Shown here piece by piece: positions 3,428 to 44,188 of a stretch of 44,188 nt of DNA. Positions within the stretch are counted from its first letter, which is position 1. The number at the start of each line of letters is the position of its first letter. The stretch is from positions 1 through 44,188 of the IMG/VR virus record IMGVR_UViG_3300006119_000020; one strand, written 5' to 3'. A program made the translations under genes and the position numbers. The notes under the pieces were generated by a model. It was not told the origin of the DNA, searched no databases, and was given only the letters and a program-made list of their open reading frames with translations. The stretch comes from a virus.

Positions 3428-4005
3428 TATAGCCCCCAGATCACGCTATATTGACCAGTGCATTGAGTAGAACCATCAACGCCGACAACGCGAATACTGT
3501 AATTATTTGTTGGCTTTGTTACCGCGCCCATCAATGCCCTGCCCGCTGTAACAACATTGGCGACTTTTGTGTGGCATGTAACAAGACCACTTGCGGCCCA
3601 AACAGTGCTGGCCTCAAATTTTTCAAACCTTACATTTCCAGCAAGGGGAAACTGATAAAATCCATAAAACGCTATTCCTTGATAAAATTGTCCAGATCCA
3701 CTTCCGAGGCCGTCAGCAAAAAATGTAGATACGCAGTTATAATTATTATTTAGAAACCCTCCATCAAACCCAAGCTGAATACAAAACGCAGTCGACGGAT
3801 GAGCAACGTCAAACAAACTTACGCTTATCATGCGCGCGTCAGGCGATATTCCATTAAAAGGCTGCGAAGCATCTATTGGCGTGGGCGAATGATAAAACTG
3901 TGTTGGCAAAGGTTCCTCAAACACGACAGAACCATCGCCATTCAGCTTTATGTTTTGCTGGGTATCGCGCCCAATTATCCCACTACCGCTTAGTGTGACA
4001 GCCAT
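3427..4005 (-). CDS. fibre-associated structural protein
   Basis: 192 residues, no named domain recognised. The first 40 residues include IKLNGDGSVVFEEPLP, similar to the N-terminus of the collar protein encoded next, so both may attach to the same virion component by a shared N-terminal peptide. The remainder is Gly, aromatic and beta-strand rich (QFYQGIAFYGFYQFPLAGNVRF) and ends in YSVIWGL, like a small receptor-binding beta domain. It lies between two collar paralogues in the tail fibre block and is coupled to the next gene by a one-base overlap. Role in host recognition is inferred from position. Confidence 0.65.
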   Translation of the reverse strand: MAVTLSGSGIIGRDTQQNIKLNGDGSVVFEEPLPTQFYHSPTPIDASQPFNGISPDARMISVSLFDVAHPSTAFCIQLGFDGGFLNNNYNCVSTFFADGLGSGSGQFYQGIAFYGFYQFPLAGNVRFEKFEASTVWAASGLVTCHTKVANVVTAGRALMGAVTKPTNNYSIRVVGVDGSTQCTGQYSVIWGL

Positions 4006-4013
4006 TGTGAACC

Positions 4014-4610
4014 TCAGTATTTAATGATGGGAAGAAGGGCGACGTTAACTGGCCTATTTTCTGGCGCAGTTGGAACAACGCGAGAAGCGTCAAATTCAAG
4101 AAGATTAGGCGAAGGATTAGCTGTTTCTGCCGCCGCAGAGTTGCCACCACCAATTAAATAAAATGCTCCTGTGCCGCCATCAAAACAATTTCTGTTACTT
4201 TGCTGACCAACGCTACCCGTTATATTTCTAATCGCGTCTCCTTGCGCTGAACCAAAACCTCTACCGGGATCAACACCGCGCCCATCATCCCATCCGCGTA
4301 TGAACTCGCCGCGCAAATCTGGGACATTAAAGTTTGTTGCATCGCCGCCAAACGTATTGCCGATTGCAGCATGTAAATTAGGATATGTTGCAATAGGATG
4401 AGATGACCCATTGCATATTAACCAACCGTCAGGCGCAGCTGGATACGCTCCGAAAACAACAGTGCCGCTTGGAATACCAGTCGTAACGCCAACGATGGCT
4501 AATTCACCGCTAACGGTTGGCATCTTAACAGTTGTCGTATTCGGGCTATCATTTGATACAAGTATCGCCTTGCCGCCCTGTGCATTTACAAGTCCAACCG
4601 CGCTAACCAT
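4014..4610 (-). CDS. tail-collar domain fibre protein, paralogue
   Basis: 198 residues. After a 45-residue N-terminal part, a tail collar domain follows (AAPDGWLICNGSSHP, PNLHAAIGNTFGGD, FNVPDLRGEFIRGWD) and the protein ends in NRPVNVALLPIIKY. Its collar core is nearly identical in amino acids to that of the gene at 2843-3427 but the DNA differs at many third positions, so the copies have been kept by selection on protein. The N-terminal and the middle distal parts differ, which fits two tips with different targets or one nested assembly. It directly follows the collagen-like fibre gene. Confidence 0.82.
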   Translation of the reverse strand: MVSAVGLVNAQGGKAILVSNDSPNTTTVKMPTVSGELAIVGVTTGIPSGTVVFGAYPAAPDGWLICNGSSHPIATYPNLHAAIGNTFGGDATNFNVPDLRGEFIRGWDDGRGVDPGRGFGSAQGDAIRNITGSVGQQSNRNCFDGGTGAFYLIGGGNSAAAETANPSPNLLEFDASRVVPTAPENRPVNVALLPIIKY

Positions 4611-4619
4611 TGCCGCCTC

Positions 4620-6695
4620 TTAAATGATTGTCCAAACGCTGCCGCTCGGTATCTCAACCGTAACGCCATCGTTGATTTTCACAGGCCCAAATGTGCCAGC
4701 GTTTTTACTGTCAGGAATTATGTATGAGTGCGCGACGACAAGATCGTTGAGGAAGAACACCTCATCACCGCCAGCGCCAGTTGCACCACCGCCACCGCCT
4801 TGACCGCCGGGAAGGTTTTTCAGCAACGAGCCATCAACTGCGGGAAGACGCGCAGCTTCATCTAATTGCACAACATTGTTCGGCAGCTCGCCAGCATCTA
4901 ATATCGCGGCAGTTCCAAGATTAAGGTTCTCACGCGCAAGGCCAGCATTGGTTAAGTCAGAAAGGTTTGCGTCTTTCTTTAATGAATTAACGTCAGGCGG
5001 TCCCTCTGGGCCAACAGGCCCCTCTTTTCCGGGCGGGCCGGGTTCTCCTTGCGGGCCGCGCTCTCCGACATCGCCGTCTTTTCCCGGCGGCCCAGCAACG
5101 CCCTGCGGTCCCTCTTTTCCTTGCGGGCCAACGATACGACCAGCGTTAATCCAGCCATCAACCTCAAAACCGGGGCTATTAGTGAAGATATAAAGATTGC
5201 CAGTATTCTGTGGTTGCTGTGTGCCGTTGTAAATAAGCGCATCGTTAGCGGCGAACTGAATATCAGCCGGAGGTTTACCGGGACCATCAAAGTCTTTCGG
5301 GATTAAACCATTGGCTGGCAGCTCGTCAGGTGTGCGATTAACAAACTCACCCTTAGCTTGGCCTGTAGATCCGGGAGGACCGCGATCACCGTCCCGGCCT
5401 TGTATTCCTTGCTCGCCGGGAGGACCACGCTCGCCGGGGTCTCCGGGAGCGCCATCTGCGCCATCATTTCCGCGAGGCCCTTCGGGACCACGAACACCCT
5501 GTATTCCCGGCTCGCCAGCGGGGCCGGGCGGTCCTTGCACATGACCAGAATTAACCCAACCAGAAAGGTTATATTCATTGGCCGTAACATAAACCCAGAT
5601 GTCGCCCGTTGGCGTGTAGATCAAACCATCATTATAGGCGACTTGATATGACTTCGGCGGTTTACCGGGGCCATCAAAGTTAGCAGGGATTAATCCGCTT
5701 GGCGGCAATTCTGACGGCGTGGCAGTAGAGAAACTACCCGTTACCGTTGCAAACTCTCCGGGCGGTCCTTGAACACCAGCGGGACCAGCAACGCCCTGCA
5801 ATCCCTGCACACCCTGCGGCCCAACCTGTCCGTCAAATCCGCGAGGCCCTGTCTCGCCCTTAGGTCCGCGCACACCTTGCGGGCCAGCAACAGCGCCAAG
5901 GTTTGCCCATGTTGACGGCGCATCGCCAGCTTTAAAGGTAACAGTCGTGCGATTGATTAAATCGCCAACGTAAGAATAGACATGATAATTATATGCCGCA
6001 CCAAAGACGACAGCTTCTCCGGGTCTGAATTGAACATCCTGCGGAGGAATACCGGGGCTATCAAAGTTCTTTGGAATTAAGCCATCAGCGGGAAGATCGC
6101 TTGGAGTTTTATTAGCAACCGCAAAACGTAAATCTGCCGTTTGGCCCGGAGGTCCAGAATTTCCCTGCGCTCCTTCTGGTCCGACCTCGCCCGGCTCGCC
6201 GCGCGGCCCGTCTTGGCCCTGCAATCCTTGGACGCCTTGCGGCCCAACTAATCCGTCTTTTCCCTGCGGGCCCTGTGGTCCGGGTGGTCCAGCGGGAATA
6301 TTGTTTATGCGCGTATAGGCTTCGCGCAACGCTGTGACGACATAACCGTTTTCATAATTATATTCACGGCGCGATATGCCAGAAGCAGTCGGCATAACAA
6401 GTTGTCGAGGGCGTATGACGCCGACAACTTCAATTTTTGTAAATGCTGGAACCGGAGAGACAAAATTAATCTGCGCATCAGTTAATGGTTGCGGTAATGA
6501 TGCAAGGTCTTGGCCGCTTTTAGATGATAAAGTCCAAACATTCGGGTTCTGATCCAACCCGTTAAATCTTACGAGAAGATCCTCCGCACCGCCGTAAACT
6601 GGATAAGGGACATCAACAAAAGAAACTGGTCCCGTATTCGTGTAAACAGCAATTCGGTCGGCATCTGCTACTGGCGGGACGGGTGGTAAGGACAT
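4620..6695 (-). CDS. collagen-like tail fibre with T7-type N-terminal attachment domain
   Basis: 691 residues. Residues about 1-135 resemble the T7 gp17 N-terminal domain ([13 protein letters not shown], ... [14 protein letters not shown], then REYNYE), which docks fibres to the tail. Four Gly-X-Y collagen stretches follow (about 138-187, 268-313, 383-445, 520-567), separated by three related globular modules that begin [32 protein letters not shown] and [16 protein letters not shown]. The C-terminal 120 residues include a Gly-rich hinge and a beta-rich end. Collagen repeats imply a homotrimer. It lies directly after the internal virion protein genes, as the T7 fibre gene lies after gp16. Host adsorption is the expected role. 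Confidence 0.85.
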
Positions 6696-36022: not shown

Positions 36023-36502
36023 TTAAAACAATTCGCCCTGCTCAATGTTCCCCATGTTTTGCTTAATTTGACTCTTTTTCAGCAATTTAGCCCCAATTTT
36101 CTTGTCGGCTTTTCTCTTTGCTGCGCTGGCCCGTCCAGCCATCCTTGCTATTTCTCTGCGTCTATTTGAGTCGAGCTTTTTAGCTCGCGCAATACCACCG
36201 CTGGCGGCTATTTTTTTTCTTTCTTTCCTGTGGAAAACTTCATAACTATCTCTAGTTGTTCCATCTTCTTTCAACTTGCTAGGAGAAAGAACAACCATTA
36301 ATTCGCAGTCTAGGGCGCGCAGTATAGCAGGTAGCGAGAGCGGTCCTAGTGCTTTTAGGCCACAGAAAATTTTATTTGAATAACCACCCTGCAATCCGGC
36401 GCGGTCATTAAGCTCCATTAGGGTCATACCGCGATGGATACGAACCCTATTGAGAGCTGCAATCAAGTCAGCCATCGTAACGATTGACGGCTGGTTCATC
36501 AT
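36023..36502 (-). CDS. HTH regulator with basic C-terminal tail
   Basis: 159 residues from ATG at 36502, which overlaps the upstream stop by ATGA. Residues about 10-75 form an XRE-type helix-turn-helix (RIHRGMTLMELNDRAGLQGG, then YSNKIF, LGPLSLPAILRALDCEL). The C-terminal 70 residues are strongly basic and contain AASGGIARAKKLDSNRRREI and ARMAGRASAAKRK, similar to the GGxAR...RR motif common in phage HTH proteins. It is the last gene of the leftward replication operon and meets the plus-strand cassette tail to tail. Likely a DNA-binding regulator. Confidence 0.7.
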   Translation of the reverse strand: MMNQPSIVTMADLIAALNRVRIHRGMTLMELNDRAGLQGGYSNKIFCGLKALGPLSLPAILRALDCELMVVLSPSKLKEDGTTRDSYEVFHRKERKKIAASGGIARAKKLDSNRRREIARMAGRASAAKRKADKKIGAKLLKKSQIKQNMGNIEQGELF

Positions 36503-37101
36503 TCGGCGGCTTCGCTCAGGCCGTAATACTGACGGTTGTTTTGTTTTTCCCAAACCTCAAGCCATGAGGCTGGAATTGTCCTTGTCACAACTGGCCTAAC
36601 AGGTCCGGCAGCTATCTCAGCCTTGGTCATGTAGCCGTAGGGATGGTTCGGCCTCATCGTATAACGATCTGAACCTAGCCTATTGACGATGAAATTTTCA
36701 TCAGCCAGCTCATCGGCAGTAAATCCATTTGTCGGTGGCTCTAGTTTTCCTGACTTCAGCTTATCAACAAGCTCATTGAAGCGGCGCTTCATATCCTCGC
36801 GCTGCTCCTCCGGCATTTCATAGCGCGGTAAACGTGGTAGGGCCTCAGTGAGTCTCTCGACCCTTCTGGCTGCGTTTTCCTGCGCCGCGCTATATACCTG
36901 GCCAGCCGATGGAATAAACGCGCTGTTGGTCTTCGCAAGGCGATTACAGGCCATCTCAACATCGATGGCGTTGGTTGATCCCATTGTCTCGCAATAATCC
37001 TTGATCCGGCTAACCAGATCCTCACGACCCAACGCAGATGAGGCGGGGAATTTGTTGAACAGGTGAACTATCGCTGATTGAATCCGTTTCTTGTTGTCCA
37101 T
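36499..37101 (-). CDS. putative helicase loader
   Basis: About 200 residues (a start three codons earlier is possible). The N-terminal 75 residues show the pattern of phage helicase loaders (G39P/lambda P-like context): DLVSRIKDYCETMGSTNAID, VEMACNRLAKTNSAFIPSAG, QVYSAAQENA, i.e. two helices and the phrase FIPSAGQV. The rest is basic and partly disordered. It directly follows the initiator-like gene, with which it overlaps by about 80 bases, as O and P lie together in lambda. It would bring the host replicative helicase to the origin. Assignment by pattern and neighbours. Confidence 0.55.
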   Translation of the reverse strand: MDNKKRIQSAIVHLFNKFPASSALGREDLVSRIKDYCETMGSTNAIDVEMACNRLAKTNSAFIPSAGQVYSAAQENAARRVERLTEALPRLPRYEMPEEQREDMKRRFNELVDKLKSGKLEPPTNGFTADELADENFIVNRLGSDRYTMRPNHPYGYMTKAEIAAGPVRPVVTRTIPASWLEVWEKQNNRQYYGLSEAAE

Positions 37102-37828
37102 GATCGTCATCCAAAAATAAAATTGCTTCGGTTATCGCGGAGATTTTTTGCTTGGCGGGATGTGCGCGAGGCTCGACATGAGCGGGCGCGTCTTCCCATC
37201 GACGTTGATTGAGAAACGTCGCAGGGTTGAGCCACGGTCTGTCCGGCGGCTTATTGGCGATGTAGTTGGAGAGCCCGAACATGATCGCGTCATGCTCGGC
37301 GGCAACCTTGGCGTATGATTTTTGCGCCGCTGGTTTGCCAACCTTGTTTGGCCAAGCTGACCAAAATTCATCAAATTGATTGACAGAGACAACGCGCGTT
37401 ACGCGCGCCTTTTTCGTATCACTATGTTCTGTATCTGTATCTGTATCTGTATCTGGTAGCCGTGACGTTACGGGCGTCACGCGTGACGCGTCACGGTCGT
37501 CACGTTTCCTGTCACGGTAACGCTTAGCCCTAGCCGCAGCGGTAGCGTCTTTTAAGTCGCTGATATACTGACGTTTTTCCCAATTTGTAGGAAAATTATT
37601 TTCATCAATTAAATTACGGTCGCGTAACGCCTCTTTCGTGACGCGCCATTGTTCAGCCGTGACGCGTAACGCGAACGTCACGGCATCGTCACGCAAATCG
37701 TCACGCTTGTTGCTCATGCACCTCATGCACAAAAGCATGATGAAACGGCGCTGGTCTTGCTCCGATAGCATCTGAACTTTTGGGTCTGATAAGAACTCAG
37801 CGTGGAGTCTGAACCAAGGGTTGCTCAT
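37022..37828 (-). CDS. replication initiator-like protein (lambda O / DnaT-like plan)
   Basis: 268 residues from ATG at 37828, with GGAAGG 5 bases upstream. N-terminal winged-helix-like domain (NPWFRLHAEFLSDPKVQML, DQRRFIMLLCMRCM, VTAEQWRVTKEALRDRNLID), then a basic hinge (ARAKRYRDRKR) and a Thr/Asp repeat TDTDTDTDTE, then a C-terminal domain with FDEFWSAWPNKVGKPAAQKS and RPWLNPATFLNQRRW. Proteins with this layout are common phage initiators, and the FWxxWP...K domain is shared with DnaT/lambda-type replication proteins. The coding region holds ten CGTCACG heptamers, so it may contain the origin it binds. Confidence 0.75.
   Translation of the reverse strand: MSNPWFRLHAEFLSDPKVQMLSEQDQRRFIMLLCMRCMSNKRDDLRDDAVTFALRVTAEQWRVTKEALRDRNLIDENNFPTNWEKRQYISDLKDATAAARAKRYRDRKRDDRDASRVTPVTSRLPDTDTDTDTEHSDTKKARVTRVVSVNQFDEFWSAWPNKVGKPAAQKSYAKVAAEHDAIMFGLSNYIANKPPDRPWLNPATFLNQRRWEDAPAHVEPRAHPAKQKISAITEAILFLDDDHGQQETDSISDSSPVQQIPRLICVGS
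37461..37705. other. putative replication origin: iterons around an AT-rich core
   Basis: Ten exact copies of CGTCACG or its complement CGTGACG lie within 245 bases: five at 37461, 37475, 37482, 37489, 37498 and five at 37637, 37658, 37676, 37687, 37699. They flank 37560-37620, which is strongly AT-rich (TTTTTCCCAATTTG, AAAATTATTTTCATCAATTA), a fitting unwinding element. A GATACA-type hexamer tandem (37427-37455) lies beside them. As in lambda, the cluster is inside the initiator gene. Confidence 0.75.
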
Positions 37829-38361
37829 GCTACCTTCCCCCATGATAGATAATTAAGATTGGGAAGGATGAGGCGCAGATCGGTCAGAGCAGACTGAGGG
37901 ACGAGCCATGATGGATCGCCGCCATTTCCCCATGACTGTTCCCAGAAACGATCCACCATCGCGTCAGCGCCTTTGATGGCGCCGTGGATGACGAACTGAG
38001 GTAGAGATGCTGGCATCTCCTTGTAGGTCACAAGGACGAAATACCGATGAGCCCTTTCACGATCTTTCTTGCGTATGATTAGACGCCCGTTAAAATGATG
38101 GGTCGCCCTAACCTCAATGCCATTGGATAGATCGGCATCGTCCGGGTCATAGCCGCCCTTCAATGCTGACGGATATGATCCCGTAAACCGACCGACAATA
38201 ATCTCAGCCATGACAGACCAGACTTCTGACTCAGGCGTTGTCGATACGCCATGACCAGAATTTTGATCGCGTGATGCTCTGAGAATTTCACGGCGACGGC
38301 CAGCCTCGCTCCATGCGTGAGAATATTCGCTCCGGGTTATGAGGGTCGTGTATTTGTTCAT
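37825..38361 (-). CDS. PD-(D/E)XK nuclease-like phage protein
   Basis: 178 residues from ATG at 38361, with GGAGGG 7 bases upstream; it overlaps the upstream stop and the downstream start by ATGA each. The central part has MAEIIVGRFTGSYPSALKGG, DPDDADLSNGIEVRATHH and GRLIIRKKDRERAHRYFVLV. The order Glu, Asp-x-Leu, then Ile-Glu-Val-Arg on a strand, followed by a beta strand and basic residues, resembles the PD-(D/E)XK fold with Arg in place of the usual Lys. Trp-rich C-terminus. Nuclease activity is an inference; it could be an inactive relative that binds DNA. Confidence 0.55.
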   Translation of the reverse strand: MNKYTTLITRSEYSHAWSEAGRRREILRASRDQNSGHGVSTTPESEVWSVMAEIIVGRFTGSYPSALKGGYDPDDADLSNGIEVRATHHFNGRLIIRKKDRERAHRYFVLVTYKEMPASLPQFVIHGAIKGADAMVDRFWEQSWGNGGDPSWLVPQSALTDLRLILPNLNYLSWGKVA

Positions 38362-38567: not shown

Positions 38568-38731
38568 CAGCGTTGCCCCTTCTCAAGAGCCGCTTCGATG
38601 CGGGCGATGATCGTATCGATGATGTCGTTGATGAACTCGCGCTCAGACTTGGAGCCAGTAACCTGCCCGCGCTTCTGATCTTCTCTGACTTTTCGCAAAG
38701 CCATTAATTGTTGCGATGGAGAATGTTTCAT
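38567..38731 (-). CDS. small helical protein in replication operon
   Basis: 54 residues, fully helical and charged: MKHSPSQQLMALRKVREDQK, then SEREFINDIIDTIIARIEAA and a basic end. Its ATG overlaps the DnaA-like gene's stop by one base, and its TGA overlaps the next start. The position in a tightly coupled operon supports that it is real. Function unknown. Confidence 0.55.
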   Translation of the reverse strand: MKHSPSQQLMALRKVREDQKRGQVTGSKSEREFINDIIDTIIARIEAALEKGQR

Positions 38732-39273
38732 CACGCGCCCCAATAAACATTGTTGGAGGATGGGGCGAACAAACGATTGCGAAGCAAAAGAATATCGTGC
38801 GCGACCTTTGGGTTATCCAAAATCAAACGCTCGATCTTTCTAATGCCAGATAAAATGGTTGTATGATCGCGCTGAAATGATCGGCCAATCTGGGTTAGAG
38901 ATTGCGTCGAACAACTCTTGCAGAGATAAAACGCCAGATGGCGTGGATAAATAAGATCCGCGCAGCGACGATCGGCTAGAAGATCAATCTCGCTGACGTT
39001 AAAAAAGTCACATATGACTTGAACAACTTGGCGGGTGATTGGCTTGTATGGAACGTGGGGATATTCGCCATACTGATTTTTATAAACGATTTGTTTGGTT
39101 TTCTTGGTTGAAGGAACCTCAACAATCTTTGGCGCTTCAACAACAGCCGGCGGTGCAATTTGAATTGGCTTGACCACAACGGTTGCTACCGTTGTTTTTG
39201 ACATGCCCATTCTTTTCCAACGCTCTTTAGCGGCTTGATGATAATCCTTTTTTGAGATGCTGGTAGACATCAT
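38731..39273 (-). CDS. stand-alone DnaA domain IV (DNA-binding) protein
   Basis: 180 residues with no AAA+ ATPase. After a linker rich in Pro, Val and Lys, the last 100 residues are DnaA domain IV: VICDFFNVSEIDLLADRRCA, IYPRHLAFYLCKSC, LTQIGRSFQRDHTTILSGIR, with RDHTTI at 135-140 matching the DnaA box-reading signature. GAGGGG precedes the ATG pair. It could compete with or recruit host DnaA, or bind the phage origin. Located between RusA and the small replication genes, overlapping the RusA stop. Confidence 0.85.
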   Translation of the reverse strand: MMSTSISKKDYHQAAKERWKRMGMSKTTVATVVVKPIQIAPPAVVEAPKIVEVPSTKKTKQIVYKNQYGEYPHVPYKPITRQVVQVICDFFNVSEIDLLADRRCADLIYPRHLAFYLCKSCSTQSLTQIGRSFQRDHTTILSGIRKIERLILDNPKVAHDILLLRNRLFAPSSNNVYWGA

Positions 39274-43614: not shown

Positions 43615-44188
43615 CGCGGCAGGTGAGGTGAGGTTGGGACAGGACCGGAGACGCAAGGCAGGAAGGGCTACTTCTGGAAACATTAGGCTAGGCAAGGCTG
43701 GATAGGAAAGGTCTGGTTTGGCGCGTAGAGGCGCGGCGCGGAGAGGCAGGAGTGGGGTGGCTAGGTGTGGCGCGGAGCGCAGAGGCGGGTTGCGGCAAGG
43801 CAGGAAAGGTGGGGCGAGGAATGTTCCGGCGAGCAACGGATTGGCGCGGCAGGAAAGGTGGGGCGAGGACAAGCTTGGAAAGGTGCGGCTGGGTTTGGCG
43901 AGGCAGGAATGGAAGGGCGAGGTTTGGTGCAAAAAGGTAATGCGGGGCGCGGCAGGAATGGTGAGGCGAGGAATGGCAGGGAAAGGCTCGGCGCGGCAGG
44001 AGGGGTGAGGCGAGGAATTACGGGGAGTGGAAATGCCAGGCGAGGCAGGAATGGAAAGGTATTGCGGGGTGAGGACGGGAACGTTCTGGCGTGGCCCGGA
44101 GAGGCAAGGCAGGAAAGGCATGGCGGGGTATGGTCGGGAACGACATGGCATGTTCTGGCGAGGCGAGGCAGGAGCGGTGTGGATGGGT
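43615..44188. repeat. NNNGG pentamer array with CAGG punctuation
   Basis: From the first cgcgg (43615) to the window end the plus strand can be read as consecutive 5-base words, 87 of 104 ending in GG. Frame is shifted by a 4-base word CAGG (once CTGG) at 43620, 43659, 43698, 43747, 43801, 43850, 43904, 43953, 43997, 44046, 44110 and 44169. Spacings are 39, 39, 49, 54, 49, 54, 49, 44, 49, 64, 59, all equal to 4 modulo 5. In units five to nine the order after CAGG is similar (aaagg/aatgg, tgggg/tgagg, then cgagg), and most units end cgcgg, cgagg or caagg. No gene fits; a long minus-strand open frame here is a by-product. It continues beyond the window. Confidence 0.92.

Follow-up and report, generated by a model that had tools for sequence, protein, structure and literature searches.

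The dense cluster of CGTNACG sites described here is, with a probability that we put at about 85%, a phage replication origin located within the stretch that codes for the phage's own initiator and read by the N-terminal part of that protein. The window, i.e., the entire stretch of DNA analyzed, is a viral contig 44,188 bases long; its genes include terminase, connector, RusA, Erf and RecE-like ones. The original prediction of an origin-like iteron cluster is supported by the annotation of the initiator, by the conservation of the repeats as DNA at two places in distant relatives, and by the covariation of the repeats with a residue of the protein; at the level of sequence, these observations point to a putative origin.

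The repeats themselves are unambiguous. On its two strands together, the whole window has 13 copies of CGTCACG against 3.7 expected, and none of the shuffled sequences reached 13. The ten CGTCACG/CGTGACG heptamers that had been reported at 37461-37705 were recovered with exactly that count and those coordinates, five on each side of an AT-rich stretch whose central 60 bp (37561-37620) are 73% AT, a value that ranks in the top 0.06% of the window. The repeat unit is nevertheless broader than the heptamer first described, being CGTNACG in the subclade of the window and ACGTTACA-like in most relatives. When any central base is allowed, 14 copies of CGTNACG lie at 37397-37705 versus 10 in the remaining 43.9 kb, where no 309-bp window holds more than 2. 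Seven of these sites form cluster A (37623-37705; starts at 37623, 37637, 37658, 37665, 37676, 37687 and 37699) and six form cluster B (37461-37504; starts at 37461, 37466, 37475, 37482, 37489 and 37498), whereas the fourteenth, a CGTTACG at 37397-37403, is an outlier within the palindrome CGCGCGTTACGCGCG. A strong helical period was not found among the window sites.

The sites lie in a gene on the minus strand (37022-37843, 822 nt), the likely start of which is the Met of MSNPWF at 37828; the resulting protein has 268 aa, and residues are numbered here from that Met. Its reading as initiator-like is borne out by profile matches to PHROG 10469 (DnaD-like helicase loader, E=4.4e-19) and PHROG 270 (replication initiation, E=1.1e-15). 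The PHROG 10469 profile matches the N-terminal domain, as it does in all 35 family members examined; PF09681 (Phage_rep_org_N) matches weakly in 19 of the 35, and the window domain scores 16.0 bits, below the Pfam gathering cut-off of 23.3. The structure model has a winged-helix N-terminal domain at residues 4-88, followed by a basic helix at 97-113; a linker predicted to be disordered (approximately 117-148) then leads into a helical C-terminal domain (from 149 to 207 and further). Foldseek placed DnaD and a pSK41-type Rep N-terminal domain at the top of its matches to the model, in both cases weakly; for the full-length model, which was built from an alignment without two rows from phage records, DnaD leads the list, unreliably. 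Within the winged helix-turn-helix, it is cluster A that encodes the loop, helix 2 and the recognition helix, and cluster B encodes the start of the linker; both positions match those of the corresponding clusters in the family. A linker placement thus holds for cluster B, whereas cluster A falls within the folded, DNA-binding domain.

Such repeats could in principle be a by-product of the protein: if Arg-Val-Thr and Arg-Asp repeats were required, the DNA repeats would follow from codon usage, and VT and VTL are indeed common at cluster A of the relatives. The repeated Arg-Val-Thr that had been noted is correct for part of the sites; it fails as the sole reading, as all three codon phases are used. 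CGTNACG encodes Arg-Asp in phase 0 (RDD/RDA), x-Val-Thr in phase 2 (RVT/AVT/PVT) and Ala-Leu/Ser-Arg in phase 1 (ALR/ASR/TSR), and CGTGACG is absent from phase 1, where it would create a stop codon. When the gene's own synonymous codons were shuffled with the protein fixed, none of 10,000 sequences reached 14 CGTNACG (mean 2.4, max 8), and the same was true of 10,000 sequences resampled with the codon usage of the phage structural genes (mean 1.1, max 6). Because neither null ever yields 14 sites, the constraint acts on DNA, and the window heptamers cannot follow from the protein sequence. With sites in three frames and synonymous nulls failing widely in both the window and the family, we regard a purely protein-level constraint as scarcely credible.

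Relatives of the gene were drawn from IMG/VR and from genomes of Pseudomonas, Massilia, Pandoraea, Stenotrophomonas and others; a single-protein genome scan returned no exact close relatives, and class- and order-level searches yielded few family members. The first set of relatives had been selected in part by a DTDTDTDT pattern, and the statistics therefore rest on a set of 69 non-redundant genes picked solely by N-terminal patterns that do not overlap the iterons. The exact-7-mer maximum is a weak blind detector, giving only p=0.13 even for lambda O, and we therefore relied on motif counts. The 69 genes, which are related and thus not independent of each other, contain 469 CGTNAC/GTNACG words versus 176 +/- 11 expected from synonymous shuffles that keep the proteins constant, and at least three such words occur in 63 of them. 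CGTTAC is the most enriched of all hexamers in the family genes (366 vs 69 expected), and the flanking ORFs show no excess (286 vs 269). Relative to the W-x-KRQ codons, the sites peak at -165 to -75 and at +45 to +135, with almost none between; both clusters are present in 95 of 104 genes, with means of 3.0 and 3.0 sites, and the family sites, like those of the window, are read in three frames. The relatives do not have the same protein without heptamers, a finding that would have counted against the original prediction; their heptamers have another, matching sequence, although the clusters are missing from some distant or HNH-fused members (L339, L341). Taken as sequence comparison, these counts show that the family iterons are under DNA-level selection in a bipartite layout.

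Two features of gene architecture were observed alongside. In L217 (gene 3998-5161), L339 and L341, an HNH endonuclease domain separates the basic helix from the DTDT-type linker; this insertion falls inside the putative origin DNA, and L339 and L341 keep few or no iterons. The C-terminal helical domain (residues 149-212, codons at 37193-37384 on the minus strand) is swapped between family members while the N-terminal domain and the iterons stay linked, as if the linker and origin were a recombination joint.

Covariation, as a sequence signal, between the iteron word and residue 101 is the best indication that the sites are read by the initiator itself. The codon of this residue (Ala in the window; Val, Thr or Ser in most relatives) lies at 37526-37528 on the minus strand. 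Residue 101 belongs to the basic helix (codons at 37490-37540, minus strand), the proposed base-reading element, in which R100 and R105 are invariant; the spacing R100-x101-x-x-104-R105 resembles that of a bZIP basic region. The words used among the relatives are CGTTAC, CGTTTC, CGTCAC and CGTTGC, and in every gene (113/113) the word class follows from residue 101 (V 89/89, T 12/12, S 5/5): Val is paired with CGTT(A/T)C, Thr with CGTCAC and Ser with CGTTGC, and the Ala of the window with CGTCACG. No other N-terminal column performs as well; the next best reaches 93% and is itself encoded by cluster A. With the exception of four genes, the iterons do not overlap the codon of residue 101, and varied codons are used for it. 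Leave-one-out prediction succeeded for 112 of 113 genes, the sole failure being the unique Ala101 of the window, which is a single case. A further 26 held-out genes, found later and sharing less than 85% identity with the first set, gave no contradictions, with agreement in every gene that allowed a word call (18/18 Val, 2/2 Thr). In each of three nearby relatives (L237, L248 and L241), residue 101 and the word differ together. The tree shows several concordant changes; the independent ones that can be counted on well-supported branches, three for Thr and two for Ser, are all concordant, although a phylogenetic sign test on so few changes is underpowered. The subclade with A, M, Q or N at position 101, which includes the window, has the palindromic CGTNACG with G at position 7, whereas the V, T and S members have A at that position. 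We consider it fairly probable that these genes form a very widespread phage initiator family with a bipartite in-gene origin, in which one residue of the basic helix dictates the iteron (V101, CGTT(A/T)C; T101, CGTCAC; S101, CGTTGC; A/M/Q/N101, palindromic CGTNACG).

Covariation speaks to recognition, not to the consequence of binding, and it would also suit an intragenic operator, at which the bound initiator represses its own gene by blocking elongation while the true origin lies elsewhere. This explanation appears unlikely to us: the density of a gene's own word falls from 11.0 per kb in-gene to 0.39 per kb elsewhere in the loci, which is background, and the loci show neither a cluster at a promoter nor a second origin-like cluster. 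Two clusters beside an AT-rich stretch or purine tandem within an initiator gene also resemble proven origins (PMC7466680, PMC6316719, PMC5703833).

The sites might instead serve another DNA-binding factor, namely the DnaA-domain-IV protein encoded by the phage, a partition protein or a factor from the host. Such a factor is conceivable, as a gene upstream of the initiator gene, where a RusA gene also lies, encodes a protein of 180 aa in which a long N-terminal tail is followed by DnaA domain IV alone (38731-39273, minus strand; PF08299, E=1.4e-20). CGTNACG, however, is not a DnaA box, DnaA boxes form no cluster at 37.4-37.7 kb of the window, a DnaA-IV-like gene is near only 4 of 118 loci while nearly all have the iterons, and it is with a residue of the initiator itself that the word covaries; we accordingly judge another reader very improbable. 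With no box cluster at the heptamer site, a DnaA-box origin was likewise rejected. An initiator-read origin remains our preferred reading, to which the DnaA-IV protein is a possible accessory factor. The DnaA-box core TTATCCAC occurs at 38950 on the minus strand, inside the DnaA-IV gene, as one of only two in the window, and stand-alone DnaA-IV genes are also found near the initiator in L046, L088, L051 and MW202613 (L006). On the other side, a gene (36499-37110, minus strand) overlaps the 3' end of the initiator gene. In relatives this place is taken by a helicase loader or helicase, such as the DnaB-like helicase of L007; for the gene of the window, Pfam and PHROG profile searches gave no family match. 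Elsewhere in the window, approximately 550 bases of degenerate G-/purine-rich repeats (GGCGAGGCAGGAAAGGT-like, periods 15, 44 and 59) lie at 43620-44188, to the right of the recombination genes, where GC skew has its window maximum of 0.29, and the gene at 4620-6695 on the minus strand encodes a long protein, probably a tail fibre, whose GPQG repeats resemble collagen.

Two elements may provide the site of DNA opening. The stretch between clusters A and B (37550-37622) is 70% AT and is a candidate unwinding element. The second candidate is the hexamer tandem that had been noted beside the heptamers and is indeed there: TCTGTA in 4.7 copies at 37428-37455, which reads GATACA on the coding strand and encodes DTDTDTDT. 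A purine-rich tandem adjoining cluster B recurs across the initiator family, and GATACA-tandem words are the second most enriched in hexamer counts of the family genes. Since the peptide form differs between phages (DTDTDT, EQNRTEQ, EEKREEK), the tandem seems to be kept as DNA and not as peptide. The family-average AT content between the clusters is raised only mildly, so that the opening site is uncertain. Cumulative GC skew, which had been proposed as a check, has its minimum at 38748, approximately 1 kb off and in a flat stretch of 33-40 kb; as skew in the window is confounded with gene direction, this is compatible with the location and not decisive.

An origin within an initiator gene is already known as a type. 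In the case of lambda O and ori-lambda, as well as of P27/933W, the initiator gene carries its iterons and an AT-rich tract centrally (PMC7466680), and the gene of the window likewise combines both; the parallel drawn earlier with lambda ori, with a different repeat unit, is right in kind. Lambda, however, has four 18-bp iterons in one cluster, of unrelated sequence, whereas the window has 7-bp CGTNACG sites in two clusters, one of them in DNA-binding-domain codons, and we found no match of the window initiator to the lambda O family. In SPP1, direct repeats and an AT-rich unwinding element lie within gene 38, encoding gp38, at oriL (PMC6316719). The window resembles this arrangement with different repeats; SPP1 has, in addition, a second origin that lies outside gene 38, and it supplies a loader and a helicase of its own. 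In pSK41, the Rep boxes are central in rep and are bound by the winged-helix N-terminal domain; Rep has DnaD-like domains, and its linker is encoded by origin DNA (PMC5703833). Domains of pSK41-type Rep are at or near the top of the Foldseek list of the window protein, with weak scores (E 0.08-0.24, TM below 0.5); a VIA-align comparison with the RepA_N-type winged helix gave Z 6.8-7.3, inside the range for unrelated winged helices, and the RepA_N family is absent from Pfam scans of the window initiator. The window also differs from pSK41 in having two clusters instead of one and a proposed reading helix that comes after the winged helix. By profile, the protein family of the window gene is PHROG 10469, with the PF09681 replisome organisers matching weakly. 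CGTNAC/GTNACG iterons or a residue-101 code in either group were not found in the open-licence literature searched; as far as that literature shows, the iteron family, the bipartite placement and the residue-101 code are new.

Binding, opening, helicase loading and origin use by the initiator are inferred from these features, and we propose the following scheme. The N-terminal part of the initiator would bind each CGTNACG site, with the basic helix that follows the winged-helix domain (R100-x101-x-x-[HY]104-R105) reading the bases and residue 101 setting the iteron base at position 4 or 5. Several initiators on clusters A and B, approximately 0.2 kb apart, would wrap or bridge the DNA, and this nucleoprotein complex would open the DNA at one of two places, the AT-rich stretch that separates the clusters or the purine-rich tandem next to cluster B. 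Loading of the replicative helicase might then be assisted by the DnaD-like C-terminal domain. By analogy with lambda O, SPP1 gp38 and pSK41 Rep, a nucleoprotein complex that opens DNA and recruits the helicase is the most likely mode of action. With origin and reader in one gene, the two would be inherited and changed together.

Most temperate phage origins are unmapped. If the residue-101 rule holds, both the origin and its iteron word could be read from the initiator gene in hundreds of prophages of Pseudomonas, Burkholderiales and others, and replication compatibility groups would, if the rule is true, become readable from sequence. One substitution together with synonymous edits in the same gene would then suffice for a new replication specificity. 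The family would thus be a rare natural case in which the recognition rule of an initiator changes repeatedly while the target sites, in the codons of the same gene, change along with it, and the evolution of initiator specificity may thereby be approached by a single-residue swap.
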